Below, in pieces: positions 3,497 to 48,611 of a DNA stretch of 64,000 bases. The stretch's first letter is position 1. Each line of letters begins with the position of its first letter. Below the pieces are notes generated by a model. It did no database searches. It saw only the letters and a list, made by a program, of their open reading frames with translations, and was not told the DNA's origin. The translations under genes and the position numbers were made by a program. The DNA is from Aminobacter carboxidus. Its GTDB lineage: Bacteria > Pseudomonadota > Alphaproteobacteria > Rhizobiales > Rhizobiaceae. The stretch covers positions 1,488,001 through 1,552,000 of the forward strand of contig NZ_JACZEP010000001.1 of the NCBI RefSeq assembly GCF_014863355.1. The letters are read 5' to 3'.

Positions 3497-3516
3497 CATC
3501 GTCTGAAAAGACTAAC
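3497..3516 (-). promoter_or_regulatory. island regulon element, copy 1
   Basis: Read toward the thiolase gene it is GTTAGTCTTTTCAGACGATG, with the dyad GTCT/AGAC. It lies 126 bp before the TTG start at 3370 in the otherwise empty gap between the thiolase and the SDR. Confidence 0.6.
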
Positions 3517-3601
3517 GGCGGGTCCGCGATACGCATCGATTGCGAAGCTCGATGCACAAGAGGCAACGGCGCAGATGATGGACACCGCGCCGCAGAAGCG
3601 G

Positions 3602-4372
3602 TCAGACGTGATAACCGCCATCGACGTTGATGACTTCGCCGGAGATGAAGCCGGCGCGGCTGGAGGCCAGGAACGACACTGCCTCGGCAATGTCGATCGC
3701 CTTGCCGTTGCGGCGCAGCGGCGTCGCCATGGCCGCCGCCTGCATGTACTTGTCGTCGATGTAGCCGAGTTTGCTGAGCTCGGTGTGCTGGCCGGTCTCG
3801 ATGATGCCGAGCGCCACGCCATTGGCGCGGATACCGTAGCGCCCCTCTTCCTTGGCCACGCCCTTCATCAGCGCATTCACCGCCGATTTAGGCACCACCG
3901 ACAGGCCGTCGGCGGCGGCGAAGCGGTACTGCGCCGAACTCTGGCAGGCCACGATCGAACCGCGCGCCTTGCGCAGATGCGGGATGGCGTAGTGGACGAC
4001 ATTAAAGAAGCCGAAGGCGTCCTGCATCAGATGCTTGCGCATCTGCTCGGGCTCGATCTTGCTGAGATGGATCAGTGGCACCAGCGGTCCTGCGGCATAG
4101 ACGACGGTGTGGATACCGCCATTGGCTTCCGCTACGCCGTCGATGAAGGCGCGGGTCGCCTCGACGTCCTCGATGTTGAGTTTGTGGGTGGACGCCTTGC
4201 GGCCTTCGCCGCGAACAGCCTCTGCTGCGGCCTCGGCCTTGGCCTGGTTGCTGTGGTAGGTCAGAGCGACATGGCAGCCGTCGCGCGCCAGCACCCGGCA
4301 GATCTCGGCGCCGACGCCGCCGCTGCCGCCGATGACAATGGCCGTTCCTTCAGTCGGGTAAAGTCCGCTCAT
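3602..4372 (-). CDS. SDR family oxidoreductase with atypical active site
   Basis: The 256-residue protein has an SDR fold: glycine-rich loop near residues 13-22 (VIGGSGGVGAE), a VVYAAG segment in place of NNAG, and a C-terminal VDGGYHV. The catalytic Ser is present in the QSSAQ stretch (about 145). At the position of the catalytic Tyr, four residues before Lys162 (SVVPK), there is Ser158. It may therefore be a divergent reductase or a non-reducing SDR. It is the last gene of the 11577-3602 operon and starts just after the kinase gene, with GGGAGG before ATG. An SDR next to the LvaA/LvaC-like pair matches the levulinate lva operon layout, where the SDR (LvaD) acts on the 4-oxo group; equating them is inference. 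Confidence 0.82.
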   Translation of the reverse strand: MSGLYPTEGTAIVIGGSGGVGAEICRVLARDGCHVALTYHSNQAKAEAAAEAVRGEGRKASTHKLNIEDVEATRAFIDGVAEANGGIHTVVYAAGPLVPLIHLSKIEPEQMRKHLMQDAFGFFNVVHYAIPHLRKARGSIVACQSSAQYRFAAADGLSVVPKSAVNALMKGVAKEEGRYGIRANGVALGIIETGQHTELSKLGYIDDKYMQAAAMATPLRRNGKAIDIAEAVSFLASSRAGFISGEVINVDGGYHV

Positions 4373-4383
4373 CTTCGTCCTCC

Positions 4384-5454
4384 CTATGATTTCATCGCCA
4401 GTTCGGCATAGTGCCAGCCAAACTCGGCCACAGGCCGTGCCAAGGCGCCGGCCTCACGGGCGTGCGCGCTTGCTGCATTGCCGTCGACCACGCGCTTCAT
4501 GATGCCTTGGCGAATGCCCGCGACGCGGAACAGGCTGTAGGCAAGATAAGCGTACCAATGGCGGTCCGACACGCCCTGCTGCCCGGTCGCCTTGAGATAG
4601 GCATCGCGGTAGCTGCGCTCGTCGGGGATGCCTAATGCGGCGATGTCGAGGTCGCCCAGCCCACGATAAGGCTTGTTCGGCAGGCGCCATGTCAGCATGT
4701 GATAGGCGAAGTCGGCCATCGGTTCGCCCAGCGTCGACAGCTCCCAGTCCACGAGCGCCACGACGCGCGGTTCGATCGGATGGAAGAGCATATTGTCGAT
4801 GCGGAAATCGCCGTGGATCAGCGACGTGCGCGTTTCAGGAGGGATGTTGCCGGGCAGCCATTCGATCAGCCGGTCCATCGCCTCAATGGTTTCGGTCTCG
4901 GACGCCCGATACTGCTTGGACCACCGTGTCACCTGGCGCGCCACATAGTCGCCCGGCTTGCCGAAATCCTTGAGCCCGACCACCCTGTAGTCCGTGGTGT
5001 GGAGAGCGGCGGCGACGCGGTTCATCTCAAGATAGATGGCCTTGCGTTCTACAGGCGATTGATCGGGCAAGGCAGGTGCCCAGAATGAACGACCCTCGAC
5101 GAAATCCATGACGTAGAACATGGTGCCGACGATGCTTTCGTCGTCGCAGAGCAGCCGTGCCCCGGCGACCGGCACGTCGCTGTCGCGCAGCGCGCTGATG
5201 ACACGGAACTCACGGTCGACGGCATGTGCCGACGGCAACAGCTTGCCGTCGGGCTTCTTTCGAAGCACCAGCTTGCGCTTGCCGTCGAAGGACAACAACA
5301 TCGTCGGGTTGGACTGGCCGCCGCGGAAGCGCTCGACCGTCAACGCACCCTCGCAGCCTTCGATGTTGGCCTTGAGGTAGGCATGCAGCCGCGTTACATC
5401 GATCTTGCTGTCGATGGCGAGCGGCTCGGTGCCGACGAAACGGCTGGCATCCAT
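4384..5454 (-). CDS. APH-family phosphotransferase (LvaA/ACAD11-kinase-like)
   Basis: The 356-residue protein has an aminoglycoside-phosphotransferase kinase fold. Brenner's catalytic motif HGDFRIDN is at 214-221 (Asp216 as base, Asn221 as metal ligand) and the metal-binding DWE is at 236-238. A nucleotide-loop-like segment (RGGQSNPT) lies near 44-51. The frame continues upstream, but ATG 5454 follows GGAGGG and fits the family start. Relatives include the kinase domain of ACAD10/11 and Pseudomonas LvaA, which phosphorylate 4-hydroxyacyl-CoAs. The gene lies 17 bp downstream of an acyl-CoA dehydrogenase gene, which strongly supports that role over antibiotic resistance. No LvaB-like small gene is visible beside it. 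Confidence 0.87.
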   Translation of the reverse strand: MDASRFVGTEPLAIDSKIDVTRLHAYLKANIEGCEGALTVERFRGGQSNPTMLLSFDGKRKLVLRKKPDGKLLPSAHAVDREFRVISALRDSDVPVAGARLLCDDESIVGTMFYVMDFVEGRSFWAPALPDQSPVERKAIYLEMNRVAAALHTTDYRVVGLKDFGKPGDYVARQVTRWSKQYRASETETIEAMDRLIEWLPGNIPPETRTSLIHGDFRIDNMLFHPIEPRVVALVDWELSTLGEPMADFAYHMLTWRLPNKPYRGLGDLDIAALGIPDERSYRDAYLKATGQQGVSDRHWYAYLAYSLFRVAGIRQGIMKRVVDGNAASAHAREAGALARPVAEFGWHYAELAMKS

Positions 5455-5471
5455 GACCTGCCCTCCCTCTG

Positions 5472-6738: not shown

Positions 6739-7539
6739 TCACGCCGCGCGGACGCCGGGAGGATTGCCCTTCAGCACGGTGGCGCGGAGATTGTGGGGAT
6801 CGAGCCTGCCGATGATCGCCATCTGCTCCTCGGTCGGGGCTGCCGTGGTGGTCATGCGTTCGGCGCGCAGCAGCGGGAAGCCGGTGGCGTCCTGCACCTG
6901 TTCGAAGGTCACGCCGGGATGCAGCGACAACACCTGGGCCGCATGGTCGGGACCATTGAAGTCGAAGACACAGAGGTCGGTGATGACCACGCCGAGCTTG
7001 ACGTCGGCGGGCCTGGCACCCTCCGGCCAATTCTTGGCGTTGTAGCCGACGCTCGCCACCACATCGACCTCACCCTCGACGAAGGTGCGCTTCGAATGGC
7101 TGGGCAGGAACATCGAGTTCTTGTGGCAGATGGAGTTTCCGGGAAAGCCGCGGACACCAAGCATGGCGACCTTCGGCTTCTGGAACTCGCCGCCAAGTGC
7201 CGAGATGTTACCCTGGCCGTAGCGGTCGACCTGTACCGGCGTCACCATCGCGTGGCGACGGCCGCTCCAGACGCTGTCGAAGACGCGGCTATACGGCATC
7301 CAGCCGGAGAGCTTCGGCTTGTAGTCGCCGCGTGGTCCGAGTGGGATCGGGTCCTCGACGAGGTAGGCCTCGCCGTCGGTCATCATGATGCCGGGTGCGC
7401 AGCTCAGCTTGGCTAGACCAGCCGCCAGACGCGGCAGCGGCCCGATGCCGGTTGCCAGAACCTCGCCGTCGGAAGCCCATGCCTGCGCGCCAACGGCGAC
7501 GATCAGTTCGGCAAGCGTGAATTCTTTTGCAGTCGTCAT
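6739..7539 (-). CDS. CoA-transferase beta subunit (IpdB-like)
   Basis: The 266-residue protein is the beta subunit of a class I CoA-transferase-fold heterodimer. It starts with [15 protein letters not shown] and carries a glycine-rich [12 protein letters not shown] and a GVRGFPGNS stretch. Its closest described relatives by pattern are IpdB-type subunits, which together with IpdA act as a carbon-carbon hydrolase opening a cyclic beta-keto acyl-CoA in steroid C/D-ring breakdown, not as a true transferase. The alpha gene ends 11 bp upstream. A real succinyl-CoA transferase role cannot be excluded. Confidence 0.85.
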
Positions 7540-7550
7540 ATCGTGTCCGA

Positions 7551-8429
7551 TCAGAAAATGGGGAGCGGCAGGGCGCGGATCTTGGCTTCGCCGCCAACGC
7601 TCGCGGCGTAGCTGGCCTCGTCGCCCTTCACATATTGGTCGAAATAGCGCTGCCAGCCGCCCTCTTCGCCTGCCGAAACGGCATAGTCCTTGAGGTGACC
7701 CATATCCCAGCCATAGGCGTCATGTGCGGCGGTCGGGTGCGCGCCGAGCGGTGCTGACACCACGCCGGTGACCAGGCAACGTTCGAACAGTTGCTGCTTG
7801 GCCTGGTCGGAGTATTCGGTGTCGATACGGTCGACCAGCACCTCGGTGCTGACGAACACCTTGTCGGCGGCGCGGGCGAACAGGCCGTCGAAGAATGGAT
7901 CCGGACCATCAGTCTGGGTGTTGCCCAGACGGTCAGCGCGGCTCGCGTGGATCAACGCCACGTCGAGCTTGATCGCCGGCATCGCCAGCAGCGTCTCACC
8001 GTCGCCATAAGGCGACTTCACCGTCTTGAAGTGTGGGTTGTACTTCATGACGTCGGAGCCGAGGCCGACGCGTGTCGCAGCGAACGGCAAATTGTGGCCG
8101 GCAGCCTGCAGGCCGAGCAGAAGAAGACCCTCGTCGAGCTCGGAGACTTCGACCGCGCCTGCTTCGCGCGCCTTGCGGAAGTAGGGCTCGATCGGCATCG
8201 CATCGAGCGAAACGAAACCGTAGATCAGCTTCTTGACCTTGCCCGCCGCGCACAGCATGCCGATCTCAGGCCCGCCATAGGCGACCAGCGTCAGGTCTTT
8301 GAGGTCCGAGCGCAAGATCTCGCGCACCAGCGCCATCGGCTTGCGCCGCGGACCCCAGCCGCCGAAGCCGATCTTCATGCCGTCGCGCAGCTGGGCGACG
8401 ACCGCTTTCAGGTCCATTTCCTTGTTCAT
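7551..8429 (-). CDS. CoA-transferase alpha subunit (IpdA-like)
   Basis: The 292-residue protein is the alpha subunit paired with the following gene. It starts with a MKIGFGGWGPRRKPMALVREI segment typical of class I CoA transferases. A SELDEG motif at residues 96-101 holds acidic residues that are candidates for the catalytic carboxylate in the IpdA group (inference). The usual GSxGD loop of 3-oxoacid CoA-transferases is not evident, which fits the IpdAB hydrolase group better than SCOT. The operon position between the FadB-like gene and the beta subunit suggests action on a beta-oxidation intermediate, perhaps opening a ring. Confidence 0.85.
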   Translation of the reverse strand: MNKEMDLKAVVAQLRDGMKIGFGGWGPRRKPMALVREILRSDLKDLTLVAYGGPEIGMLCAAGKVKKLIYGFVSLDAMPIEPYFRKAREAGAVEVSELDEGLLLLGLQAAGHNLPFAATRVGLGSDVMKYNPHFKTVKSPYGDGETLLAMPAIKLDVALIHASRADRLGNTQTDGPDPFFDGLFARAADKVFVSTEVLVDRIDTEYSDQAKQQLFERCLVTGVVSAPLGAHPTAAHDAYGWDMGHLKDYAVSAGEEGGWQRYFDQYVKGDEASYAASVGGEAKIRALPLPIF

Positions 8430-11661: not shown

Positions 11662-11681
11662 CATCGTCTGATGGGACTAGT
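11662..11681 (-). promoter_or_regulatory. island regulon element, copy 2
   Basis: Read toward the 11577 gene it is ACTAGTCCCATCAGACGATG. It lies 84 bp before that ATG and is back to back with copy 3 in the same 226-bp divergent region. Confidence 0.6.
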
Positions 11682-11731: not shown

Positions 11732-11751
11732 CTTAGTCCCTTCGGACGATG
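11732..11751 (+). promoter_or_regulatory. island regulon element, copy 3
   Basis: The plus strand reads CTTAGTCCCTTCGGACGATG, with a perfect GTCC/GGAC dyad around a 4-base spacer. It ends 52 bp before the ATG of the plus-strand SDR at 11804. Its orientation is inverted relative to copy 2, matching the inverted gene direction. Confidence 0.65.
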
Positions 11752-11803: not shown

Positions 11804-12559
11804 ATGGCCCGTCTGGCAGGCAAAGTGGCATTCATTACAGGCGCGACCGGCGGCATCGGCGAGACCGCGGCGCGGCTCTTTGCACGTGAAGGCGCCAAGG
11901 TGGCGGTGGCCGGCCGCAGCCGCGACAAGGGCGAAGCCATCGCCTCCTCTATCAATGCTTCGGGAGGCGCAGCACTCTATGTCGAGACAGACGTCACCGA
12001 GCCTGACAGCGTCGAGGCTGCGTTCAGGATGGTGATGGAAAGCTGGGGTCGGCTCGACGTGCTCTACAACAACGCCGGCGGCTCGAGTTCTGCCGACGGC
12101 CCGGTGACGGTTGCGCCGTTCGAGGAATTCTGGCGCTGCATCAAGCTCGACCTGTTCGGCACCTGGGTCTGCTGCCGCAACGCGATTCCGCTGATGCAGC
12201 AATCGGGCGGCGGATCGATCATCAATTGCTCGTCGATCGTCGGCGCCATGGGCATCCCCAACCGCGACGCCTACTCGGCGGCCAAGGGCGGCGTCATCTC
12301 GCTCACCCGCTCCATGGCAGTGGAATTCGCCAAGGATAATATCCGCGTCAACGTGCTGGTGCCGGGCGCGGTCGCCACCGACCGTGTGCTCGGCTTCTTC
12401 GAGCGTGAACCGCATCTCAAGGCACAGTTCGACGCCTATCTGCTCGGTATCGCCGAACCCATCGATGTCGCCAATGCAGCGCTGTACCTGGCTTCGGACG
12501 AATCGCGGAAGATGACCGGTCACCAGTTGCCCATCGACGGCGGCATCCTGATTTCGTGA
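11804..12559 (+). CDS. SDR family oxidoreductase
   Basis: This 251-residue classical SDR has TGATGGIGE as cofactor loop, NNAGG, the catalytic Ser in NCSSIVG and Tyr-x3-Lys in AYSAAKGG, and ends with LPIDGGILIS. GAGGAG lies 6 bases before ATG. The N-terminal VAGRSR after the second strand has arginines that would suit NADP(H), but this is not decisive. It is followed by an acyl-CoA synthetase gene 104 bp downstream, probably in one transcript driven from the element at 11732. Likely role: oxidation of a hydroxyl group on the substrate or an intermediate. Confidence 0.92.
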   Translation: MARLAGKVAFITGATGGIGETAARLFAREGAKVAVAGRSRDKGEAIASSINASGGAALYVETDVTEPDSVEAAFRMVMESWGRLDVLYNNAGGSSSADGPVTVAPFEEFWRCIKLDLFGTWVCCRNAIPLMQQSGGGSIINCSSIVGAMGIPNRDAYSAAKGGVISLTRSMAVEFAKDNIRVNVLVPGAVATDRVLGFFEREPHLKAQFDAYLLGIAEPIDVANAALYLASDESRKMTGHQLPIDGGILIS

Positions 12560-12663
12560 CCGGCGCGCCCGGACTGGCTTAGTCTGTGCAGACGATGCCC
12601 GCTTTCGCGGGCAAGTTCTCTAGTCGCCACGGAATCCCAATTTCGACTGCAGGAAATACGAGT

Positions 12664-14202
12664 ATGGAAATCCTGAGCCAGGTGCTGGCGCGGAACGCAC
12701 GGCTGATCGGCGAGCGCAACTTCATCGTCACCGACAAGGCGACGATCACCTATGAGCGCTTCGCCGAACTGACGGCACAGCTGGCAAATGTGCTCAAGGC
12801 GCGCGGCGTGGCCAAGGGTGACCGCGTCGGGCTCTATCTGCCGAGCACGCCGATGATGGCCATCGGCTTCTGGGCCTGTCAGCGCCTCGGCGCGATCCCA
12901 GCCCCGCTCAGCGCCATGTTCCGCCACGCCGAGCTGCGCAAGATCGTTGCCCAGACCGGAATGAAGGCGCTCGTCGCTGACAGCTCGACCTGGCCCTATT
13001 TTTCCGAGATCAGGGCCGAGTTTGCCGATCTCGCCCATTGCCTGGTCGTTTCGGGCGACGGCAGCACTGACGACCTCACCTCGCTGATGGCCACAGCACC
13101 CGCGACATTCGAAGACGTTGCCTGCCATATCGACGACATCTGCGCCCTGTTCTTCACCTCCGGCACTACCGGTGCGCCCAAGGGTGCCGCGCAATCGCAG
13201 TTCAACCAGTGCTCGACGCTGCGCGACATGATGGTGTCGCACCGCACGCGCTTTGCCGAGGAAGTCTATCTCTGCGCCGTGCCGCTGTTCACCAATTTCG
13301 GCCTGACGGTGACGCTCAACCTCTGCCTCTATACCGGCGGCACCATCGTGTTGCACGAGCGCTGGGACACCCAGCGTGTGCTTTCCGACATCGGCGAATA
13401 CAAGGCGACCTATTTCGGCGGCACGCCGACCATGTATGTCTACATGGTCAACGAGGTCGATCCAGCCAGGCACGACCTGTCGTCGCTGCGCATCTGCACG
13501 ACAGGCGGATCGCCGGTGCCGCAGCCGGTCATTCGCCGCTTCGAGGAACTCTCCGGTGCCCGGGTGACCCAAGTCTACGGCTCGACAGAAACCAGCGGCC
13601 AGAACGTCATGGAACCCACTGCTGGCATCCGCAAGCCAGGCTCAGCCGGCTTGCCTGTCGGCAGCTCGCGCATTTCGATCGTCGACGACGAAGGCAACGC
13701 CGTGCCGCAGGGCGAGATCGGCGAGGTCATTATCTCCGGTGATTGCGTCGCTCAAGGCTACTGGATGGACGAAAAGGCATCAGCCGAGGCCTTCGGCAAT
13801 GGCGGCTGGAAGTCGGGCGATCTCGGCTATGTCGACGAGGATGGCTACCTGTTCATCGTCGACCGCAAGAAGGACGTCATCATCGCCGGCGGCCACAATG
13901 TCTATCCGCTCGAGATCGAGGCGCTGCTCTACAAGCACCCGGCGGTCGCCATGTGCGCGGTGGTCGGCGCACCCGACGAAAGCAAGGGTGAAATCCCGGT
14001 CGCCGTCGTCGTCAGGGCTGTGGGGCATGACGCGACGGCGGAAGATCTCATCCGTTACTGCCGCGAAAGTCTTGCCGCCTACAAAGCCCCGCGCGCCGTC
14101 CACTTCATCGACAACATGCCCGTCGAGGCGGCCAAGATTCGCAAGCGCGAACTGGTGCTGGCGCTGCGCGAGAACCGTCTGGGCGATTTCAGGAACAGGT
14201 AG
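12664..14202 (+). CDS. AMP-dependent acyl-CoA synthetase (AMP-binding)
   Basis: This 512-residue ANL-superfamily enzyme has the P-loop FFTSGTTGAPKGA, the adenine motif YGSTETSG, the hinge region KSGDLGYVDEDGYLFIVDRKKD, the A8 motif GGHNVYPLEIE, and a C-terminal lysine in AAKIRKREL that would catalyse adenylation. It activates a carboxylic acid to an acyl-CoA. I chose ATG 12664 (MEILSQVLARNARL) over upstream in-frame starts because AGGA precedes it and the conserved family N-terminus begins there. It is convergent with the SDR ending at 14290; the 87-bp gap shows no clear terminator. Confidence 0.92.
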   Translation: MEILSQVLARNARLIGERNFIVTDKATITYERFAELTAQLANVLKARGVAKGDRVGLYLPSTPMMAIGFWACQRLGAIPAPLSAMFRHAELRKIVAQTGMKALVADSSTWPYFSEIRAEFADLAHCLVVSGDGSTDDLTSLMATAPATFEDVACHIDDICALFFTSGTTGAPKGAAQSQFNQCSTLRDMMVSHRTRFAEEVYLCAVPLFTNFGLTVTLNLCLYTGGTIVLHERWDTQRVLSDIGEYKATYFGGTPTMYVYMVNEVDPARHDLSSLRICTTGGSPVPQPVIRRFEELSGARVTQVYGSTETSGQNVMEPTAGIRKPGSAGLPVGSSRISIVDDEGNAVPQGEIGEVIISGDCVAQGYWMDEKASAEAFGNGGWKSGDLGYVDEDGYLFIVDRKKDVIIAGGHNVYPLEIEALLYKHPAVAMCAVVGAPDESKGEIPVAVVVRAVGHDATAEDLIRYCRESLAAYKAPRAVHFIDNMPVEAAKIRKRELVLALRENRLGDFRNR

Positions 14203-20963: not shown

Positions 20964-20983
20964 CATCGTCCATGCGGACTAGC
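20964..20983 (-). promoter_or_regulatory. island regulon element, copy 4
   Basis: Toward the binding-protein gene it reads GCTAGTCCGCATGGACGATG, with a perfect GTCC/GGAC dyad. It is 133 bp before ATG 20830. Confidence 0.6.
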
Positions 20984-21024: not shown

Positions 21025-21044
21025 GCTAGTTCGTTTGCAGGATG
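21025..21044 (+). promoter_or_regulatory. island regulon element, copy 5 (weak)
   Basis: The plus strand reads GCTAGTTCGTTTGCAGGATG. It matches the element at about three quarters of positions and has the correct orientation, 32 bp before the GMC oxidoreductase ATG, but the dyad is degraded. Confidence 0.3.
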
Positions 21045-21076: not shown

Positions 21077-22681
21077 ATGAGCGAATTCGATACAATCATC
21101 GTCGGCGCCGGGTCGGCCGGTTGCGTTCTGGCCAACAGGCTGAGCGAGGACCCGGGACATAGGGTGCTTGTCCTCGAGGCCGGACCATCAGACCTTCATC
21201 CCTTGATCCGGATGCCCCGGGGATGGGTCAAGCTGACCAGGCATCCGAAACGCTCCTGGAACTTTCCTGTCGAGCAGGAAGAGGGCCGGCCGGAAGCCGA
21301 GACATGGGCGCGCGGCCGCGGGCTTGGCGGATCGAGCTCGATCAACGGAATGCTCTATTGCCGGGGCGCGCCCGAGGACTACGACGGCTGGGCCGACTTC
21401 GGCGTCAAGGGCTGGAGCTGGACCGAGATGATGCCAGTCTTCCACAAGATCGAGAACCACCAGCTTGGTGGCAATACCATCAGGGGCGGCAATGGTCCCT
21501 TGCAGGTCAGCGTTCGTCCTCTAGCCGATCCTCTCGGCCAGGCGTTCCTCGACGCAGGCGCCTCGCTCGGCCTCGATCATCTCGACGATCTCAACGGCAT
21601 CAGGCGAGATGGCGTCGGCACCTACGCGCATACGGTCGACCACAAGGGGCGGCGCATGAGCGCGGCTCGCGCCTTCCTCCGACCGGCGATGCGGCGCAAG
21701 AACCTCGTCGTCCTCACCGGCGCGCAGGTCGGGCGCATCCTGTTCGAAGGCCGTCGAGCGGTCGGCGTCGAATATGTCGCGGGCGATCGCCAACGCACCG
21801 CGCGGGCGGAAAGCGAGGTCATCGTCGCCTGCGGCGCGATCCAGTCGCCGCAACTGCTGCAGGTTTCCGGTATCGGCCGCCCCGACGTTATGTTGTCAGC
21901 CGGGGTCGATACGATCGCCGACCTGCCGGGCGTCGGCCGCAACTTGGCCGAGCATCTTGTCGTGGCACTGCCCTATCGCCTTGCCGGAATGCATGGCCAC
22001 AACCCCAGGCTCAGCGGCCTGCGTTTGATTGGCGAGGTCATACGCTATTACCTCGCCGGCACAGGGCTTATGAGCTTCGGTGCGTCAGAAATGGGCGGGT
22101 TCGTCCGCTCCTCGCCTGACGTCGCCTTTCCGGACCTGCAACTGTCGTTGTCGCCCTACACCTTTGCCCGCGGGCTGCTGCAAGGCAGGCTGAATCTGGA
22201 GGACAAGCCCGGCATCACCATCATCGGCTACGCTTTGCGACCTGAAAGCCGCGGCGAGATCACGATCCGCACAGCCGAGATGCGCGACAAGCCTTCGATC
22301 CGGGCGAACTGGCTGGCGACCGAAAACGACCGGCGCACCGCCGTTGCCATGATGCGCATCATGCGCGACTTCGTGGCACAACCGGCCTTGCGACACTTCG
22401 TCAAGGAAGAGCTGTGGCCGGGCAAGGCCATTCAGACCGACGACGAGTTGTTGGCTGCCTTCCGCTCGACTTTCGTGTCGGGCCTGCACGCGGTCGGCAC
22501 CTGCCGCATGGGCACGGACGCAAACGCCGTGGTCGACGAGCGCCTGCGCGCCCGCGGCGTCAAAGGCCTGCGCGTCGTCGATGCCTCGGTGATCCCGGCG
22601 CCGATCTCTGGCAACACCAACGGCCCGGTCATGGCGCTGGCCTGGCGCGCGGCAGACCTGATCCTCGAAGAACGAGGATGA
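21077..22681 (+). CDS. GMC family oxidoreductase (choline dehydrogenase-like)
   Basis: The 534-residue flavoprotein has the FAD dinucleotide motif VGAGSAGCVLANRLSE at the N-terminus, GMC signature 1 (GRGLGGSSSINGMLYCRG), signature 2 around IQSPQLLQVSGIG, and the catalytic His in LHAVGTCRMG with a partner Asn in SGNTNGPVMALA. It oxidises an alcohol to an aldehyde or ketone, passing electrons to a quinone or oxygen. ATG 21077 has no clear Shine-Dalgarno sequence, and the frame remains open upstream, so the start is chosen from the conserved N-terminus. It is convergent with the SnoaL-like gene. Confidence 0.93.
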   Translation: MSEFDTIIVGAGSAGCVLANRLSEDPGHRVLVLEAGPSDLHPLIRMPRGWVKLTRHPKRSWNFPVEQEEGRPEAETWARGRGLGGSSSINGMLYCRGAPEDYDGWADFGVKGWSWTEMMPVFHKIENHQLGGNTIRGGNGPLQVSVRPLADPLGQAFLDAGASLGLDHLDDLNGIRRDGVGTYAHTVDHKGRRMSAARAFLRPAMRRKNLVVLTGAQVGRILFEGRRAVGVEYVAGDRQRTARAESEVIVACGAIQSPQLLQVSGIGRPDVMLSAGVDTIADLPGVGRNLAEHLVVALPYRLAGMHGHNPRLSGLRLIGEVIRYYLAGTGLMSFGASEMGGFVRSSPDVAFPDLQLSLSPYTFARGLLQGRLNLEDKPGITIIGYALRPESRGEITIRTAEMRDKPSIRANWLATENDRRTAVAMMRIMRDFVAQPALRHFVKEELWPGKAIQTDDELLAAFRSTFVSGLHAVGTCRMGTDANAVVDERLRARGVKGLRVVDASVIPAPISGNTNGPVMALAWRAADLILEERG

Positions 22682-22685
22682 ACTC

Positions 22686-23138: not shown

Positions 23139-23139
23139 C

Positions 23140-24137: not shown

Positions 24138-24157
24138 CATCGTTCAATCGGGTGAGC
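24138..24157 (-). promoter_or_regulatory. island regulon element, copy 6
   Basis: Toward the esterase gene it reads GCTCACCCGATTGAACGATG. It is 56 bp before ATG 24081. It belongs to the GCTCACCCGAT subtype, shared with copies 7, 9 and 10. Confidence 0.55.
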
Positions 24158-26336: not shown

Positions 26337-26356
26337 CATCGTTCGATCGGGTGAGC
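26337..26356 (-). promoter_or_regulatory. island regulon element, copy 7
   Basis: Toward the SDR gene it reads GCTCACCCGATCGAACGATG, 52 bp before ATG 26284. The adjoining bases up to the terminator are also shared with copy 6. Confidence 0.6.
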
Positions 26357-27679: not shown

Positions 27680-27699
27680 CATCGTCCATAAGGACCATT
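27680..27699 (-). promoter_or_regulatory. island regulon element, copy 8
   Basis: Toward the binding-protein gene it reads AATGGTCCTTATGGACGATG, with a perfect GTCC/GGAC dyad, 55 bp before ATG 27624. It lies back to back with copy 9. Confidence 0.55.
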
Positions 27700-27756: not shown

Positions 27757-27776
27757 CCTCACCCGATCGAACGATG
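27757..27776 (+). promoter_or_regulatory. island regulon element, copy 9
   Basis: The plus strand reads CCTCACCCGATCGAACGATG, nearly the same as copy 7, 73 bp before GTG 27850 of the luciferase-like gene. Confidence 0.6.
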
Positions 27777-28995: not shown

Positions 28996-29040
28996 TCCGT
29001 CCGAGCGACCGGAGCATCCAGCCGGTCGCCTCTCTCAAAA

Positions 29041-29079
29041 CGAAAGGGCCGGCACTTGATGCCGGCCCTTTCGTTTCTG
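29041..29079. terminator. bidirectional terminator between convergent monooxygenase and flavin reductase genes
   Basis: A perfect 13-bp stem (29041-29053 with 29061-29073, 7-base loop) is flanked by T-rich sequence on both strands. Confidence 0.85.
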
Positions 29080-29099
29080 TGGATTCTGGGAATTCCTAG

Positions 29100-29597: not shown

Positions 29598-29659
29598 TTC
29601 GCGCTCCTCCTGCCGACGTCCTTCAATGAACGGATCATCGCGCAGAGGGCGCCTTGCGG

Positions 29660-29679
29660 CATCGTTCGAACGGGCGAGC
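29660..29679 (-). promoter_or_regulatory. island regulon element, copy 10
   Basis: Toward the flavin reductase gene it reads GCTCGCCCGTTCGAACGATG, 62 bp before its ATG. Confidence 0.6.
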
Positions 29680-29737
29680 CAAGCAACTCCAGGAAAAGTG
29701 TGGCGTGGTTTCCGTGCGGAGTTGCGTCAGGGCAAGA

Positions 29738-29785
29738 AGCTAGAGCTTTCCCGCGTTTCGTAGAAAAGCGGAAAAAGCTCTAGCT
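29738..29785. repeat. long inverted repeat overlapping the regulator stop codon
   Basis: Arms 29738-29754 and 29768-29785 pair over 12 exact bases (AGCTAGAGCTTT) and then CCGC with a small bulge. On the minus strand it contains CTTTTT. It could terminate the regulator transcript or be a short rhizobial-type intergenic repeat; the two cannot be separated here. Confidence 0.5.
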
Positions 29786-30913
29786 CAGTTCGTCGACCGA
29801 GCGCAAAAGCAGCCGCACCAGCTCGCTCTGCCTGGAAACGCCGGTCTTGGAAAACACCATGCGCAGATGCGCCTTGGCCGTGTTCTTGGTGACGCCGAGG
29901 GCTGCACTGGCGTCATAGAGGTCGAGACCCTGCCCCATCAGTGCGGCGAGTTCGGCTTCGGCCGGCGTCAGCCCGAACAGCCGGACAAGGATCGCCGGCT
30001 GCGGCGCCACCGTGCTGCCGGCGTCAGCGATGATGACGAGTGCCGCCCCGCGTAATGGCGCATGCAGCTTGGCGGAATGTGGTGCCGGCCGTACGACGAG
30101 GCCGAGCGCTTCGCCGCTGGAGCGATGGATTGAAAACGCCCGCGAGCCGGGAAAGGAGGCGGGGTCCGCTTCCGCGATCTCGGCGACTGCCGCAGCGAAC
30201 GCGCCGCTTGGCCCTGCCTCATCAAGCAGGCGCAGCCGCCCACGATCGTTCTTCAGCACGTCCTTTTCGGCCAGGATCGCCTCGGCCTGCGGCGTTGTCT
30301 GCAGGATGCGGCACTCCTTGTCGACGATGATCGCACCGACGGCCAACCGTCCCAGCGCGCCGGCAAAAAGCTCGCGTTCGGATTCGAGGCCGTTGAGCCG
30401 CAGGAACAGGCTCATCGCTTGCGTCAGATGCGGCAGCAGCAGCTGGAATGTCTGGCGCTCACTGGTGCCGAAATTGTCGCGACCCAGCACCCGCGTTGCC
30501 CGCATCCGCACCCTTGCACCCGACGCCTCCACAATGTCGGCGCCCACGACATGCATCCAGCCAGAACCGGTCATGAAGCTTGTCATGAATTCCGAATGCG
30601 AAAAGCCTTCCTCGCCGACGAGCTCGGCCAGCGTCGTCACCTTGCCGAGCGGCAGGTCGATGAACGGATCCTGCCTGTAGAGGGCGTTGTAGCGGGCGAT
30701 GCGCTCTTCCGACGCCGCGCCGGAATAGATGGCGCCCGGCCTGTCGCGGCGCTGGCGCTCGATGATCAGCGTGCTGCTCTCGGCATCTACCGCCGCACGC
30801 AACGCCTTGAGGAAGCCGTCGAACGGTCTGGCCTCGCTGATGCCGGCATAGAGCAACTCGACCAGCCGGTCGTGAGCGGGTCCGACGGCCGGAGCTTCCG
30901 CCCGATCGGCCAC
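29780..30913 (-). CDS. LuxR-type helix-turn-helix transcriptional regulator
   Basis: The 377-residue protein has a C-terminal LuxR/GerE DNA-binding domain (last 65 residues): FGLTPAEAELAALMGQGLDLYDASAALGVTKNTAKAHLRMVFSKTG, with the scissor helix NTAKAHLRMVF. The N-terminal 300 residues have no REC, LuxR autoinducer or ATPase motif that I can see; the middle may be PAS-like (VGAIIVDKECRILQTTPQAEAIL). It starts with GTG 4 bp after the SDR stop and is coupled to it. It is the best candidate to bind the 20-bp dyad found across the island (inference). Confidence 0.87.
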   Translation of the reverse strand: MADRAEAPAVGPAHDRLVELLYAGISEARPFDGFLKALRAAVDAESSTLIIERQRRDRPGAIYSGAASEERIARYNALYRQDPFIDLPLGKVTTLAELVGEEGFSHSEFMTSFMTGSGWMHVVGADIVEASGARVRMRATRVLGRDNFGTSERQTFQLLLPHLTQAMSLFLRLNGLESERELFAGALGRLAVGAIIVDKECRILQTTPQAEAILAEKDVLKNDRGRLRLLDEAGPSGAFAAAVAEIAEADPASFPGSRAFSIHRSSGEALGLVVRPAPHSAKLHAPLRGAALVIIADAGSTVAPQPAILVRLFGLTPAEAELAALMGQGLDLYDASAALGVTKNTAKAHLRMVFSKTGVSRQSELVRLLLRSVDELS

Positions 30914-30915: not shown

Positions 30916-31719
30916 TCAGTTCGCGTCCGGTGCGTAACGCTTGATCAGGTCGAGGAACAACGGCGTCTCGCCGCCGCCATGAACCTCGAGCGTCGCGCCG
31001 GTGACAAAGGTCGCCGTCGGGCTGGCGAGATAGAGTGCGGCGCGTGCGATGTCGTCGCCGCGACCCATGCGCTGCATCGGCACCGATGCGGCAATCGCCT
31101 GCTGGGCTTCGCGCGAACCATAAGTCTCGTCGGCCTTCTCGGTCTCAATGAGGCCTACGACGATGGCATTGACGCGCACTTTGGGTGCCCATTCCTGGGC
31201 AAGGCTGGTGGTCAGGCTGAGCAGACCAGCCTTGGCCGCGCCGTAGACCGACGTGCCCGGCGACGGGCGGCGGCCGGAAACGCTGGCGATGTTGATGATG
31301 TTACCGCCTTCCGGCAGCTTGGCCATCCAATGATAGACCGCTTGCGACAGGTAAACCGGCGCCATCAGGTTGAGATTGACGATTGCGTCGGAGAAGCGCG
31401 GCGACACTGTGGCTGCGTCGACATGCGGCGAGCCGCCGGCATTGTTGACCAGAACGTCGATCCGGCCATGTTCTTCGCCGACGCGATCGGCGAGTTCCTT
31501 GCAGGCCTGCGCGGTGCGCACGTCGCATTGCATGAAGATCGCCCGGCGCCCGTTGGAATGCGGCAGGCTGTCGGGCTCGGTGCGGGCGCAGACGACGACG
31601 GTGGCGCCTGCTCCCAGGAAGCCCTCGGCAATCGCCCGGCCGATGCCCTTGGTGCCGCCGGTGACGAGAACAACCCTTCCCTCAAAGGTCGCCGGGGCCG
31701 GTTGCGGGGCGTTGCTCAT
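30916..31719 (-). CDS. SDR family oxidoreductase
   Basis: The 267-residue classical SDR has TGGTKGIGR, an early Arg (VVCARTEP) that suits NADP(H), NNAGGSP, Ser in NIASVSG and Tyr-x3-Lys in VYGAAKAG, and EVHGGGETPLF near the end. GGAG lies 7 bases before ATG 31719; the frame is open further upstream. It is cotranscribed with the LuxR-type regulator. I found no copy of the island element in its own orientation, so this pair may be controlled separately. Confidence 0.9.
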   Translation of the reverse strand: MSNAPQPAPATFEGRVVLVTGGTKGIGRAIAEGFLGAGATVVVCARTEPDSLPHSNGRRAIFMQCDVRTAQACKELADRVGEEHGRIDVLVNNAGGSPHVDAATVSPRFSDAIVNLNLMAPVYLSQAVYHWMAKLPEGGNIINIASVSGRRPSPGTSVYGAAKAGLLSLTTSLAQEWAPKVRVNAIVVGLIETEKADETYGSREAQQAIAASVPMQRMGRGDDIARAALYLASPTATFVTGATLEVHGGGETPLFLDLIKRYAPDAN

Positions 31720-31806: not shown

Positions 31807-31826
31807 ATTCGTCCCTTCGGACGATG
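31807..31826 (+). promoter_or_regulatory. island regulon element, copy 11
   Basis: The plus strand reads ATTCGTCCCTTCGGACGATG, with a perfect GTCC/GGAC dyad identical in core to copy 3. It is 100 bp before the acyl-CoA synthetase ATG. Confidence 0.6.
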
Positions 31827-31926: not shown

Positions 31927-33513
31927 ATGATATCAGAAGACGCCGACTGGAAATTCACCACCATTCCAAATCTCTGCGCGCGCGCCGCCGAAGTCTACGG
32001 TACGCGAACGGCGGTCGAGGATGGCGGCGTCTCGCTGAACTTCGTCGAGCTCGACGCCATGCGCCGCCGCGTCGCCAAGGCGATGATCGCCGCTGGCGTG
32101 CAGAAAGGCGACCGGATCATGATCTGGGCGCCCAACACCTGGCAGTGGTTCGCCACAGCACTCGGCCTGGTGACGGCAGGCGCTGTGCTCATTCCCGCCA
32201 GCACCCGCTTCAAGGGCACCGAGATCGCCGAACTGGTCAAGCGCAGCGGCACCTCGATGCTGTTTTCTGCCGGCACGTTCCTGGGGACCTACTATCCGGA
32301 CCAGCTGAAGGTCGAAACGCGCGACGCCTTGCGCCATGTCGTGGTCATCGGCGAAACGCGCGGCGACGACAGGAGCTGGGCCAGCTTCGTTGCATCGGGC
32401 GACAGCGTCAGCGACGCTGAACTTGCCGCGCGCGAGGCAGCGGTCGGCCCTGATGACCTGTGCGACATGCTCTTCACCTCCGGTACCACGGGGTACCCGA
32501 AGGGCGTCATGTATGGCCACCAGCAGTGCCTCAAGGCGATCGACGCATGGGCCACCCGCGTCGGCATCCGCGAGCATGACCGCATCCTTGTCATCCCGCC
32601 CTTCTTCCACGCCTTCGGCTACCGCTCGGGTGCCATCGTTGCGATGATGCGTGGCGCCGTTCTGATGCCGCACCTCACCTATGATGCCGGCGAGATCCTG
32701 AAGCGCGTCTCGGAGGAAAAGATCAACGTCATCCCCGGTCCGCCAGCCATTTTCCAGGGTATGCTGCAGCATCCGGAACTTGCGAAATTCGATACCTCCA
32801 GCCTGCGCCTCGGTGTCACCGGCGGCGCCGTGGTTCCTTCGGTCCTGATCCGCCGCATGCGCGAGGAACTCGGCATTGCCGGCGTCGTCAACGGCTACGG
32901 CCTGACCGAATGCGGCGGCTATGGCACCATGTGTCTGGCGACCGACAGCGACGACGTCATCGCCAATACCGCCGGCAAGGCAGCACCTGGCGTCGAAGTC
33001 CGCATCATGGATGACATCGGCAATTTCCTGCCCGACGGTCAGCCGGGCGAAGTCGTGGTTCGCGGCTACATCGTCATGAAGGGTTACTTCAACGACCCCG
33101 AGGCAACCGCCAAGACCATCGACGCAGAGGGTTGGCTGCACACCGGCGACGTCGGCTACTTCGACGCCGACGGCAATTTGCGTATCGAGGATCGTCTCAA
33201 GGACATGTACATCACCGGCGGCTTCAACTGCTATCCGGCCGAGATCGAACGCATGCTGAGCACCCATCCGGCGATCGGCATCGTCGCCGTTATCGGTGTA
33301 GCAGACGAGCGCCTCGGCGAGGTCGGCAAGGCCTATGTCGTGCTGCGGCCGGGAACGAACGCGACCGAGAAAGAGATCATCGACTGGTCGCGCGCCAACA
33401 TGGCCAATTACAAATGCCCGCGCAGCGTCGAAATCCGCCCCTCGCTGCCGACCAGCCCGCAAGGCAAGGTACTCAAGAACCTGTTGCGCGAAGAGGCTCC
33501 CCAACCGGCCTGA
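31927..33513 (+). CDS. acyl-CoA synthetase (FadD3-like AMP-binding protein)
   Basis: This 528-residue ANL enzyme has P-loop FTSGTTGYPKGVMYGH, adenine motif YGLTECGGYGTM, HTGDVGYFDADGNLRIEDRLKDMYITGGFNCYPAEIE, and the catalytic Lys in PTSPQGKVLKN. GGFNCYPAEIE and the length are reminiscent of FadD3-type ligases that activate ring-containing propionates in steroid breakdown, but this cannot be settled by eye. It has its own element upstream and a bidirectional terminator downstream, so it is a single-gene unit. Confidence 0.92.
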   Translation: MISEDADWKFTTIPNLCARAAEVYGTRTAVEDGGVSLNFVELDAMRRRVAKAMIAAGVQKGDRIMIWAPNTWQWFATALGLVTAGAVLIPASTRFKGTEIAELVKRSGTSMLFSAGTFLGTYYPDQLKVETRDALRHVVVIGETRGDDRSWASFVASGDSVSDAELAAREAAVGPDDLCDMLFTSGTTGYPKGVMYGHQQCLKAIDAWATRVGIREHDRILVIPPFFHAFGYRSGAIVAMMRGAVLMPHLTYDAGEILKRVSEEKINVIPGPPAIFQGMLQHPELAKFDTSSLRLGVTGGAVVPSVLIRRMREELGIAGVVNGYGLTECGGYGTMCLATDSDDVIANTAGKAAPGVEVRIMDDIGNFLPDGQPGEVVVRGYIVMKGYFNDPEATAKTIDAEGWLHTGDVGYFDADGNLRIEDRLKDMYITGGFNCYPAEIERMLSTHPAIGIVAVIGVADERLGEVGKAYVVLRPGTNATEKEIIDWSRANMANYKCPRSVEIRPSLPTSPQGKVLKNLLREEAPQPA

Positions 33514-39602: not shown

Positions 39603-39622
39603 AATCGTCCAAAGGGACTAAC
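39603..39622 (-). promoter_or_regulatory. island regulon element, copy 12
   Basis: Toward the crotonase gene it reads GTTAGTCCCTTTGGACGATT, 67 bp before its ATG. The GTCC/GGAC dyad is perfect. Confidence 0.6.
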
Positions 39623-46308: not shown

Positions 46309-46328
46309 CATCGTTCGAACGGACTAAC
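46309..46328 (-). promoter_or_regulatory. island regulon element, copy 13
   Basis: Toward the LivH-like gene it reads GTTAGTCCGTTCGAACGATG, 118 bp before its ATG. The rest of this 248-bp gap (46191-46438) shows nothing else I can assign. Confidence 0.6.
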
Positions 46329-46438: not shown

Positions 46439-47275
46439 TCAGGAAAAACAGGTGCTGGCAGTGTCAAACGATGTGCTCGCCGCCTCACTCAGGCAAAGAG
46501 CAGCGAGATCGGGAGAGATCACCTCGACACTGAACGGCACGGAGACGCCCGTTGCTTCAAGCGTTGCGGCGAAACCTGCGAGGTCAAACCCGCCCTGCCC
46601 GCACAGCTTGCGGTTCATGGTCTCCGTTGACAGCTGACCGGCAGGCACTTCATCAGCGTCGTTCACCTGCACGCACAGCACCTTGTCGGCCGGAATCCGC
46701 CCGAGGTCGCCCAGCGGCACGCCGGCGCGGAAGATGTGCCAAGAATCGATGACCAGACCGGCATTGGGAATGTCGCCGATGATCGCCAGCGCCGTGTCCA
46801 CGTCCCGCACATTGCCCCAGGCCACCAGTTCCAGCGCGATCGTAAAGTCGTTTTCGGCAGCCCTGCTGCAGAGGTCACGGAACTTGTCCTGCATGGTCCC
46901 CAGCGAGATGCCACGCTCGCCAAGGTCAGGTCCGACATTGACCACCTTGGCGCCGAACGCCGCCGCCGCGCGAAACGCCGTCTCCTCGTTGCGCCGCGAG
47001 GCCAGCCCGGCCTCGCCGTCCATGAACCAGTCGGTCAGGAACTCGACCGACACATGCTTGATGCCATGGACATCGAGGATGGCGCGCAACTCGCCATCGC
47101 CAAAACCGCGCGCCCGCTGCTCGGCATAGTCGCGAAAATGCAGGCACATGCCGGTGAAGCCTGCCGCGGCACATGCCTCGACCCGCTCGCCAAAACCATG
47201 GCGCGATGCCACCGGGCCGCCCGGCATCACGCCGCTGACGGTATGCGAGCTGCAGATGTATTCGCGTGATTTCAT
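46439..47275 (-). CDS. sugar phosphate isomerase/epimerase-like TIM-barrel protein
   Basis: The 278-residue protein has the xylose-isomerase-like (AP endonuclease 2) fold: an early ACAAAGFTGMCLHF, a metal-ligand Glu candidate in ALELVAWGN, Asp and His in VIDSWHIFRAG, Asp in VQVNDADEV, and a late Glu in FSVEVISP. Enzymes of this group isomerise or epimerise sugars or act as dehydratases on hydroxyacids and inositols. It sits between the BMP transporter operon and the LivH operon, with its own degenerate regulon element. The substrate is unknown. Confidence 0.85.
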   Translation of the reverse strand: MKSREYICSSHTVSGVMPGGPVASRHGFGERVEACAAAGFTGMCLHFRDYAEQRARGFGDGELRAILDVHGIKHVSVEFLTDWFMDGEAGLASRRNEETAFRAAAAFGAKVVNVGPDLGERGISLGTMQDKFRDLCSRAAENDFTIALELVAWGNVRDVDTALAIIGDIPNAGLVIDSWHIFRAGVPLGDLGRIPADKVLCVQVNDADEVPAGQLSTETMNRKLCGQGGFDLAGFAATLEATGVSVPFSVEVISPDLAALCLSEAASTSFDTASTCFS

Positions 47276-47331: not shown

Positions 47332-47351
47332 ACAGGTCCATTCGGACTAGA
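47332..47351 (-). promoter_or_regulatory. island regulon element, copy 14 (partial match)
   Basis: Toward the isomerase gene it reads TCTAGTCCGAATGGACCTGT. The dyad GTCC/GGAC is perfect, but the following GATG is lost. It lies 56 bp before ATG 47275. Confidence 0.45.
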
Positions 47352-47380
47352 CACGGTTTCGTCAGGTGCCAAAACTAAAA

Positions 47381-47410
47381 ACCCCCGGCAAGACCGGGGG
47401 TTCTTTTTTT
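47381..47410. terminator. terminator after the BMP-family gene
   Basis: An 8-bp stem (47381-47388 with 47394-47401) and 5-base loop are flanked by TTTTTAGTTTT on the minus strand and TTCTTTTTTT on the plus strand. It lies 36 bp after the end of the BMP gene. Confidence 0.85.
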
Positions 47411-47445
47411 GAGCACGAGACACGCGCCCGGCAATGCCCGCCGGC

Positions 47446-48516
47446 TTACTGCGGCAGCTTGTCGTCCACGCCCTTGACGTAGAAGTTGAGGCCGAGCAGA
47501 ACGCCGTTTTCGGCCACTTCGCCGGCCTTGAGCCATTCCGAGCCATCCTGCTTGGCGATCGGCCCTGTGAACGGATTGAACTCTCCGGACTTGATCTTGG
47601 CTGCGGTTTCCTCGGCAAGCTTCTTGACGTCGTCGGGCATGTTGGCGAACGGCGCCATCACGACGTGGCCTTCCTTCATGCCGCCCCAGACATCCTGCTG
47701 CTTCCAGGTGCCGTCGACGACTGCCTTGACGCGCTCGACGTAGTACGGGCCCCAATCATCGACGATCGAAGTCAGCTGCGTGGTCGGGCCGAACTTGATC
47801 ATGTCAGAGGCCTGGCCGAACGCCTTGATGCCACGCTCGGTCGCAACCTGCATCGGTGCCGTCGAGTCGGTGTGCTGGGTGATGATGTCGACGCCCTGGT
47901 CGATCAGCGCCTTGGCGGCATCGGCTTCCTTGCCAGGGTCGAACCAGGTGTTGGCCCACACCACCTTGACCTTGAAGTCAGGGTTGACCGACTGCGCGCC
48001 GAGCACGAAGGCGTTGATGCCCATCACCACTTCCGGGATTGGGAAGGACGCAATGTAGCCCGCGACGCCCGCCTTCGACATCTTGGCGGCGATCACGCCC
48101 TGGATGTAGCGGCCTTCATGGAACTTCGAATTGTAGGTCGCGACGTTCGGATGCTCGCGCTTGTAGCCCGTGGCATGCTCGAACTTCACATCCGGGAACT
48201 TGCCGGCGACCTTGTTGGTAGGGTCCATGTAGCCGAAGGACGTGGTGAAGATGATGTTGCAGCCCGAACGTGCGAAACGTTCGATCGCGCGCTCGGCGTC
48301 AGCGCCCTCGGGAACGCTTTCAAGATAGGCGGTCTCGACTTTATCGCCGAGCTCCTTCTTCATGTGTTCGAGGCCCTGATGATGCTGGTAGGACCAGCCG
48401 AAATCGCCGATCGGGCCGACATAGATAAAGCAGGCCTTGGTCGCGGCTTCCGCCGCCATCGTACCGAAAGACATCACCGCGGCAGCCGCGGCAAACGACA
48501 AAATTGTCTTCTTCAT
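47446..48516 (-). CDS. BMP family ABC transporter substrate-binding protein
   Basis: The 356-residue periplasmic protein has a signal peptide (MKKTILSFAAAAAVMSFGTMAAEA) and the PnrA/BMP fold: FIYVGPIGDFGWSYQHHQGLE, FTTSFGYMDPTNKVAGKFPDVKF, VAGYIASFPIPEVVMGINAF. BMP proteins bind nucleosides or related purine compounds. It is followed by a strong terminator and preceded by a 112-bp gap, so it may also be transcribed on its own. It pairs with the permeases and ATPase upstream in the same direction. Confidence 0.93.
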   Translation of the reverse strand: MKKTILSFAAAAAVMSFGTMAAEAATKACFIYVGPIGDFGWSYQHHQGLEHMKKELGDKVETAYLESVPEGADAERAIERFARSGCNIIFTTSFGYMDPTNKVAGKFPDVKFEHATGYKREHPNVATYNSKFHEGRYIQGVIAAKMSKAGVAGYIASFPIPEVVMGINAFVLGAQSVNPDFKVKVVWANTWFDPGKEADAAKALIDQGVDIITQHTDSTAPMQVATERGIKAFGQASDMIKFGPTTQLTSIVDDWGPYYVERVKAVVDGTWKQQDVWGGMKEGHVVMAPFANMPDDVKKLAEETAAKIKSGEFNPFTGPIAKQDGSEWLKAGEVAENGVLLGLNFYVKGVDDKLPQ

Positions 48517-48591
48517 GCTTTGTTCCTCTTACTGGTTGCCCGGGGCACTATCCCATCCTTTTTGTAGTCCCTGTACATGGTCCGCCTCGAA

Positions 48592-48611
48592 TGCCGTTCG
48601 AAACGACTTTC
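48592..48611 (-). promoter_or_regulatory. island regulon element, copy 15 (doubtful)
   Basis: Toward the BMP gene it reads GAAAGTCGTTTCGAACGGCA, 75 bp before ATG. It keeps AGTC and TTCGAACG but is degenerate at both ends. Confidence 0.25.

Follow-up and report, generated by a model that had tools for sequence, protein, structure and literature searches.

The DNA analysed here (the window) is a 64,000-nucleotide stretch of the Aminobacter carboxidus genome, positions 1,488,001 to 1,552,000 of contig NZ_JACZEP010000001.1, in which the genes of a catabolic cluster are preceded by a 20-bp element that we call the box. The initial annotation of the window had described this element as directional and as the mark of one catabolic regulon, and its confinement, orientation, intergenic placement, conservation and rarity strongly support that description; the accompanying prediction, a single regulator for the whole regulon, is unproven. 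From the sequence comparisons given below, we consider it quite probable that the box is the site of a LuxR-type, PAS-containing activator that switches on HIP-type steroid import and degradation. The candidate is LuxR2, encoded to the left of the window, with its paralogue LuxR1 perhaps reading a subtype of the box.

Read toward the gene, the box can be written T[AC]GTCC-N4-GGACGATG. The 13 main copies of the initial annotation were all present in the polarity that it gave, and their alignment has T3, C7, A15 and C16 in 13/13 copies and C8, G17, A18 and T19 in 12/13 (consensus T[AC][GA][TC]CC-N-[AT]T[CT]-[GA][GA]ACGATG). The box forms a dyad, TCGTCC-N4-GGACGA, of which the gene-proximal half is kept; the distal half is mostly TAGTCC and, in four copies, TC[AG]CCC. 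This subtype was found where it had been reported. The copies in the window are the following (scores in bits are those of a position weight matrix, PWM).

3497..3516, minus strand: box before the thiolase gene 2165-3370, with a predicted -10 element TAGCAA; kept in 6/6 Aminobacter relatives examined.
11662..11681, minus strand: box before the gene run 11577-3602 (quinone oxidoreductase, FadJ-like, IpdA/IpdB-like, acyl-CoA dehydrogenase).
11732..11751, plus strand: box before a short-chain dehydrogenase/reductase (SDR) gene, 11804-12559.
12578..12597, plus strand: box 67 bp before the start of the acyl-CoA ligase gene 12664-14202; 18.7 bits, kept in 6/6 relatives.
20964..20983, minus strand: box before the LIV-type importer gene run 20830-14290.
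21025..21044, plus strand: weak box before the GMC oxidoreductase gene 21077-22681; 14.6 bits, in 4/6 relatives.
24138..24157, minus strand: TCACCC-subtype box before the esterase gene 23140-24081.
26337..26356, minus strand: TCACCC-subtype box before the SDR gene 25520-26284.
27680..27699, minus strand: box before the gene of a LIV-type solute-binding protein, 26416-27624.
27757..27776, plus strand: TCACCC-subtype box before the gene of a luciferase-like monooxygenase (LLM), 27850-28995.
29660..29679, minus strand: box of the varied subtype TCGCCC before the flavin reductase gene 29100-29597.
31807..31826, plus strand: near-palindromic box before the FadD3-family ligase gene 31927-33513; on its other side an SDR gene (30916-31719) lies at 88 bp, followed by LuxR1.
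39603..39622, minus strand: box before the gene run 39535-33697 (enoyl-CoA hydratase, two acyl-CoA dehydrogenases, thiolase, gamma-carbonic-anhydrase-like protein, SDR).
46309..46328, minus strand: top-scoring box, before the LIV-type importer run 46190-39650; 30.4 bits, identical in 6/6 Aminobacter relatives.
47332..47351, minus strand: marginal box before a sugar-isomerase-like gene, 46439-47275; 14.0 bits, with a good dyad and a poor proximal end; above 12 bits in the Aminobacter genomes G001, G002 and G003 and not in G004, G005 and G009.

The core dyad GTCC-N4-GGAC, which the initial annotation had singled out, is at chance level when searched for alone (33 matches with at most one mismatch in the window, versus 31.2 expected), and we dropped it as a search motif. 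The full pattern with at most three mismatches gives 5 matches in the window versus 0.02 expected from shuffles, so the signal is the whole 18-20 bp, within which the dyad does hold. In leave-one-out scoring, 12 of the 13 copies reach 15.2-29.2 bits and the copy at 47332 just 2.7. Scanning the window and the 38 kb to its left with a listing threshold of 7 bits recovered all 13 main copies, added the overlooked one at 12578, and revealed further copies of 13-22 bits left of the window (C1:1471629, 1473031, 1480946, 1486090 and 1486687), that at C1:1473031 being a perfect palindrome. Two weaker copies had also been proposed: the one at 21025 stands, and the one at 48592, absent from the list at 7 bits or more, was rejected. 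The three divergent pairs are 11662/11732, 20964/21025 and 27680/27757, the second depending on the weak copy. The 13 main copies lie 53-134 bp before starts called by a simple gene caller made for this analysis (32-133 bp in the initial annotation). Beyond about 49 kb, where no copy had been seen, two matches exceed 7 bits (8.7 and 8.3), both inside genes. The regulon reaches about 16 kb beyond the left end of the window and loses 48592. The third importer, an ABC importer (47446-52201) at the right edge of the cluster, has no valid box, its solute-binding protein has a weak BMP-type match below cut-off, and it probably lies outside the regulon.

The box is rare in the genome. A strict pattern derived from the window copies has nine exact matches in the 6.29-Mb genome (eight in the window, one to its left), all inside one 61-kb stretch, C1:1473031-1534326. 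When one mismatch is allowed there are 33 matches, 15 of them (14 places) in this stretch and 18 outside, and a reversed-pattern control gives 5. A sequence-only model of the 13 sites, with 150 of 1185 first-look candidates scored, yields at least 16 genome matches at E<=10, 13 of which are in the cluster. Among 297 genomes of the order, searched with filters stricter than in the other scans, 11 have any match at E<=0.1 and only this genome has more than one. A match at C1:784900 was rejected as a box (inside a gene).

To describe placement, we used 100 intergenic sites, non-redundant and scoring 15 bits or more, from Aminobacter clusters and 24 loci of other genomes. Of the 87 asymmetric sites, 57 have a start within 160 bp downstream only and 6 upstream only (57 versus 6, p = 8e-12); 20 have one on each side and 4 have none. 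Matches above 18 bits are intergenic in 162 of 165 cases (training sites included), while 91% of the DNA is called coding. The outcomes that the initial annotation had named as contrary to its claim, a motif common at unrelated loci or inside genes, or randomly oriented, were thus looked for and are not what the genome shows. Position 42 of the sites, 22 bp past the box, is an A in 63 of the 100, the maximum elsewhere in positions 21 to 120 being 39, and an alignment of 81 sites with small shifts allowed yields xAnnnT, which resembles a -10 element. An A at position 42 also occurs in 12 of 16 held-out sites, taken from loci around LuxR genes in Burkholderiaceae, Vibrio and Sphingobium. A -10 search on 22 sites of the cluster itself had given nothing clear, the signal emerging with the 100 sites, and no separate TTGACA consensus is visible at the -35 place. 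With the conserved A at -11, the dyad would be centred at -42.5 and the GATG end would lie close to -35, which would fit a class II activator site. Polarity, and a constant spacing between the GATG end and the -10-like A, might also be expected if the box were mainly a core promoter element, i.e., a variant -35 recognised by a special sigma factor. We find this very improbable: the dyad T[AC]GTCC-N4-GGACGA extends some 15 bp beyond a -35 on the upstream side, fully palindromic versions occur (C1:1473031), and the box is restricted to one pathway and travels with LuxR genes.

By its protein matches, the gene set of the regulon corresponds to the HIP-type (steroid C/D-ring) pathway. The FadD3-family acyl-CoA ligase (31927..33513, plus strand) matches NF005801 with 678 bits, above cut-off, and two genes at 6739..8429 (minus strand) encode IpdB-like and IpdA-like CoA-transferase subunits (best E 8e-81 and 1e-52) related to PDB 6co6/6coj/6con, which we take to be actinobacterial IpdAB. 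NF005925, NF005880, NF005861, NF005893 and NF005865 are also above cut-off among the cluster proteins; we take NF005925, NF005880 and NF005865 to be EchA20, IpdF and FadA6. The match of an IpdE2-like acyl-CoA dehydrogenase is below cut-off. The cluster further encodes an IpdC-like, FabK-type flavoprotein, IpdC being described as resembling FabK (PMC5380842). The LLM and flavin reductase form a pair like the type II Baeyer-Villiger monooxygenase (BVMO) reported for progesterone breakdown (PMC12239570). Together, the HIP-type genes, the LIV-type importers and the LLM/flavin reductase pair suggest as likely substrate an acid derived from a steroid, or a steroid that is already partly degraded.

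Three regulators are candidates for reading the box.

LuxR2, at C1:1474730-1475797, outside the window (13 kb to its left): GerE and PAS domains, both exceeding the Pfam cut-off.
LuxR1, 29780..30913, minus strand: LuxR-type and paralogous to LuxR2; may read the TC[AG]CCC subtype.
TetR regulator, 695..1432, plus strand: PF17932/PF00440; in alphaproteobacteria it occurs alongside the box, but we do not consider it the reader.

LuxR2 matches GerE (PF00196) with 30.8 bits (cut-off 23.5) and PAS (PF00989, at 153-253) with 23.4 bits (cut-off 22.6). The structural model of an orthologue (locus L096; mean pLDDT 73) gives weak PDB matches (TM 0.2-0.3) to PAS sensors, VqmA and EL222. LuxR1 has no match in Pfam, and in NCBIfam a weak one that stays well under the cut-off; its family placement rests on its alignment with LuxR2 (33% over the C-terminal part), in which the C-terminal helix-turn-helix (HTH) aligns.

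Of ten Aminobacter genomes, G000-G005 and G009 have 12-17 box matches each at E<=1, G006 and G007 have none, and G008 has three weak ones. The seven box-rich genomes are those with LuxR2 and TetR orthologues, each found in 7/7; among the three box-poor ones, only G006 has a LuxR2-like match, at 29%. LuxR1 is intact in five of the seven. As the only LuxR-type gene found in the window, with an HTH resembling that of LuxR2, LuxR1 might by itself read every box of the cluster, an idea that we find hardly credible. In G005, most of the 22.7-30.9 kb block is gone (esterase, SDR, LLM, flavin reductase and LuxR1), and in G004 LuxR1 is recognisable only for residues 1-119, without its HTH, and yet in both the other boxes stay. 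A search of 61 genomes found LuxR1 orthologues in five, its own among them and all Aminobacter, whereas LuxR2 homologues are found in 20 of 21 searchable TetR-bearing genomes outside Aminobacter (23 loci queried). Since G005 lacks the block of esterase, SDR, LLM, flavin reductase and LuxR1 (window 21077-30913) and G004 has lost part of it, it resembles an accessory module within the cluster.

LuxR1 perhaps reads the TC[AG]CCC subtype. This subtype has three or four copies in each of the five genomes with an intact LuxR1, and none in G005 or in 37 other loci scanned outside the genus (some of which overlap). Most LuxR2 proteins of alphaproteobacteria share the recognition region RNTARAHLRSIFSKSG; slight variants are RNTART in Stappia, KNTARAHLRAIFSKTG in Caballeronia and RNTARAHLRSIFSKTG in Vibrio, and LuxR1 has KNTAKAHLRMVFSKTG. 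NTAKVQLR occurs in the LuxR homologues of pNL2 and ES2-1, both without boxes. From Stappia to Vibrio, the LuxR2-type proteins of box-bearing loci follow the HTH pattern [RK]NTAR[AST]HLR[SA]IFSK[ST]G, with small deviations.

Two sites elsewhere in the genome deserve mention. A box at C1:223097 (TAGTCCCTTCGGACGAGG), far from the cluster, lies 81 bp before a gene that, judged by its N-terminus, we take to be of LysR type, and boxes of this kind recur 72-98 bp before the orthologue in G001, G002, G003 and G009; the gene is possibly an extra regulon member or a self-contained regulator. A box-like sequence at C1:1169004 (GCTCGTCCTGATGGACGATG), identical in two congeners, lies 122 bp before a gene whose N-terminus is presumably that of panB. 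It could tie CoA supply to the regulon or be a chance match.

Outside the genus, other Rhizobiales, Stappia, Burkholderiaceae and Vibrio carry the box before the same genes. From 44 loci with TetR homologues we took the 28 with a TetR identity of 54-98%. All 28 have boxes above 13 bits, with 124 matches (strands counted separately) versus a mean of 3.75 and a maximum of 10 for 40 column-shuffled PWMs; the other 16 loci have 3 matches. In the 24 loci outside Aminobacter, 79 boxes have a same-strand start within 200 bp, and for 75 of these the gene that follows shares at least 50% identity with a cluster gene (for instance IpdC, IpdA, thiolase, FadD3, hydratase or solute-binding protein). In Bradyrhizobium sp. 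U87765 (L090, L093), two TetR gene copies lie 43 kb apart on one contig, each amid cluster-like genes, suggesting that the cluster is duplicated.

These co-occurrences, in the genus and across the 28 loci, first led us to conclude that the TetR of the window reads the box. In this explanation, the box would be the operator of a KstR2-like repressor (695-1432) that is freed by a CoA-thioester intermediate. TetR operators are often short dyads, the protein carries a TetR_C_24 domain, its PDB relatives include KstR2 (E 1.4e-11), and the TetR-bearing metagenome-assembled genome (MAG) G338, from Burkholderiales and of uncertain completeness, has boxes and no LuxR2 match. We dropped this conclusion because LuxR2 co-occurs with the box as well and because there are box loci without a nearby TetR orthologue: box and genes occur together in betaproteobacterial and Vibrio loci in which the stretch contains no TetR orthologue. 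Six loci around homologues of 32-37% identity, possibly paralogues (6 of 15 listed, from 527 records), show four matches inside genes and no intergenic one above 11 bits. A box lies within -260..+30 of tetR itself in only 1 of 25 non-redundant loci. No distinct operator was apparent there either, as no palindrome upstream of tetR is common to more than 3 of the 25 loci (1-4 in shuffles). The constant polarity and constant -10 spacing also suit an activator better. Overall, we regard the TetR as an improbable reader, though a less improbable one than LuxR1 acting alone or a sigma factor.

The loci that separate the two genes come from 15 picked by hand (11 on plasmid records, 4 in class genomes), in which a LuxR homologue is present and the stretch contains no TetR orthologue. 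Seven of them have at least one box of at least 14 bits before a gene.

Caballeronia: 5 boxes, 23-30 bits.
Cupriavidus C39: 28.4 bits.
B. arboris: 21.6 and 16.0 bits.
Vibrio: 18.7-24.0 bits, sites placed by the annotation of the record.
Sphingobium TomTYG64: 19.6 bits.
TomTYG65: 15.6 bits.
C. necator N-1: 14.8 bits.

In Caballeronia SBC2, boxes precede genes matching the window LLM (60%) and esterase (41%). Boxes also stand before two gene runs there: one includes matches to flavin reductase (48%) and FadD3 (47%), the other to IpdA/B (62/55%), hydratase (69%), IpdC (65%), EchA20 (71%) and thiolase (65%). When whole records were scanned, three of four matches on the 2.0-Mb Caballeronia plasmid lay within 12 kb of its LuxR gene, and the sole match on the 1.19-Mb Cupriavidus plasmid adjoined its own. 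The Vibrio record is plas1 of V. alfacsensis, a 174-kb plasmid of a fish isolate with a HIP-type run and a LuxR2-like gene; the 63 kb scanned contain eight boxes above 14 bits and a weaker one before the HIP run. This weaker one, a model match of 12.4 bits, is followed after 57 bp by the VOC gene with which the run begins (VOC-IpdA-IpdB-hydratase-IpdC-EchA20-two dehydrogenases-thiolase). Judged by gene content and boxes, Caballeronia and Vibrio carry the same regulon in two other classes.

The evidence therefore favours LuxR2 as the reader, and disfavours the window TetR and LuxR1 as sole reader, yet a number of observations weigh against this interpretation. Eight of the 15 LuxR-homologue loci have no acceptable box: pNL2, ES2-1, S. 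herbicidovorans, TomTYG72, G389, G496, G576 and G704. The best upstream match of S. herbicidovorans has 12.1 bits, before its LLM, and the single 15.9-bit match in TomTYG72 lies over a gene end with no downstream start and was not counted. The class genomes G389, G496, G576 and G704 have an HTH close to that of LuxR2 although no box above 12 bits lies within about 20 kb of their LuxR2-like gene. The choice of loci matters too: the 28 loci were found through TetR, which co-occurs with LuxR2 in alphaproteobacteria so that the two are not separable there; the 11 plasmid loci were chosen from about 180-200 matching records; the absence of a TetR orthologue from them holds for the plasmid stretch examined; and the order- and class-wide searches for decoupled cases obtained few genomes. 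Caballeronia SBC2 does have a 37% TetR homologue on another replicon, around which there is no intergenic box. As for promoter geometry, the A at position 42 is present at just 7 of the 13 window sites and absent from 6, its nominal p of 9e-23 is too small (the position was picked by inspection and the 100 sites are related), and the 16 held-out sites include two inside called genes and two near-identical ones from Cupriavidus. Regarding the subtype, G004, despite its HTH-less LuxR1, holds two TCACCC boxes, which fell out of the subtype count because they overlap called open reading frames, and gain or loss of the block as a unit would explain the pattern equally well. A simple model with one reader thus has to face the eight LuxR loci lacking an acceptable box, MAG G338, and the six window sites (of 13) that lack the A.

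With LuxR2 as the favoured reader, a mechanism can be proposed. A LuxR2 dimer would bind the box at about -42.5, in the place of a -35 element, and recruit polymerase by class II activation, under the control of an intermediate, either a steroid or a CoA-thioester, that the N-terminal/PAS part would detect. The proximal half (GGACGATG) would also contact polymerase at -35, which could account for the polarity of the box. A broader view, to which we give slightly less than an even chance, is that of a portable pan-proteobacterial regulon in which a LuxR family, one box and a fixed -10 distance would govern C/D-ring (HIP), LLM/BVMO-type and import genes, transferred together among Alpha-, Beta- and Gammaproteobacteria. 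In Aminobacter, LuxR1, with NTAK for NTAR in its recognition helix, would have shifted the distal half-site from TAGTCC to TC[AG]CCC and so split the regulon in two. If these proposals hold, the box provides a concrete cis-element with its regulator, from which regulon members can be listed by sequence alone, and a candidate promoter-regulator pair for sensing steroid-ring intermediates; LuxR1, LuxR2 and the two box subtypes would make a natural experiment on the half-site specificity of this HTH class.

Several known systems resemble this one in part. In Comamonas testosteroni, TeiR/TesR is described as a LuxR-type positive regulator needed to induce steroid-degradation genes, polar or membrane-located and with kinase activity (PMC6895838, PMC6678751, PMC8399759); we liken LuxR2 to it by description only, and the consulted parts of these papers give no binding box for it. 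LuxR-type activation is suspected elsewhere too (PMC12239570, PMC8399759). In the pdc cluster of Caenibius tardaugens (BVMO, TetR, LuxR, LLM) and its split counterpart on plasmid pNL2 of N. aromaticivorans, the LLM adjoins a LuxR-type gene that might be an activator, and the sections consulted report no operator (PMC12239570). The pNL2 LLM is 63% identical to that of the window and its LuxR 33% to LuxR1; pNL2 differs in having no box above 12 bits within 15 kb. The KstR2 regulon of actinobacteria contains equivalent HIP genes (IpdAB-, IpdC- and EchA20-like, FadD3 family; roles in PMC5380842). KstR2 is a TetR repressor (PMC8399759, PMC8700777), whereas a LuxR-type activator is favoured here; KstR2 homologues are reported absent from bile-acid-degrading Proteobacteria (PMC8399759), and the window TetR matches KstR2 with 47.7 bits, below 3dcf with 98.8. 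EL222 (LOV-HTH), with its site RGNCYWWRGNCY, shares with LuxR2 and the box a PAS-type sensor joined to a LuxR-type HTH and an AGTCC half-site, the structural and sequence match being weak. Its consensus is RGNCY-WW-RGNCY (PMC10521638); the box, AGTCC-N4-GGACG, has a spacing of 4 instead of 2, and its proximal GGACG breaks that consensus. We found no published box for LuxR-type steroid regulators in the portions of the open-access literature covered, a scope that leaves aside the original TeiR/TesR papers. Compared with these systems, the regulator is of a known kind, and what appears to be new, and apparently widespread, is an operator-promoter architecture with a candidate reader for the HIP regulon.

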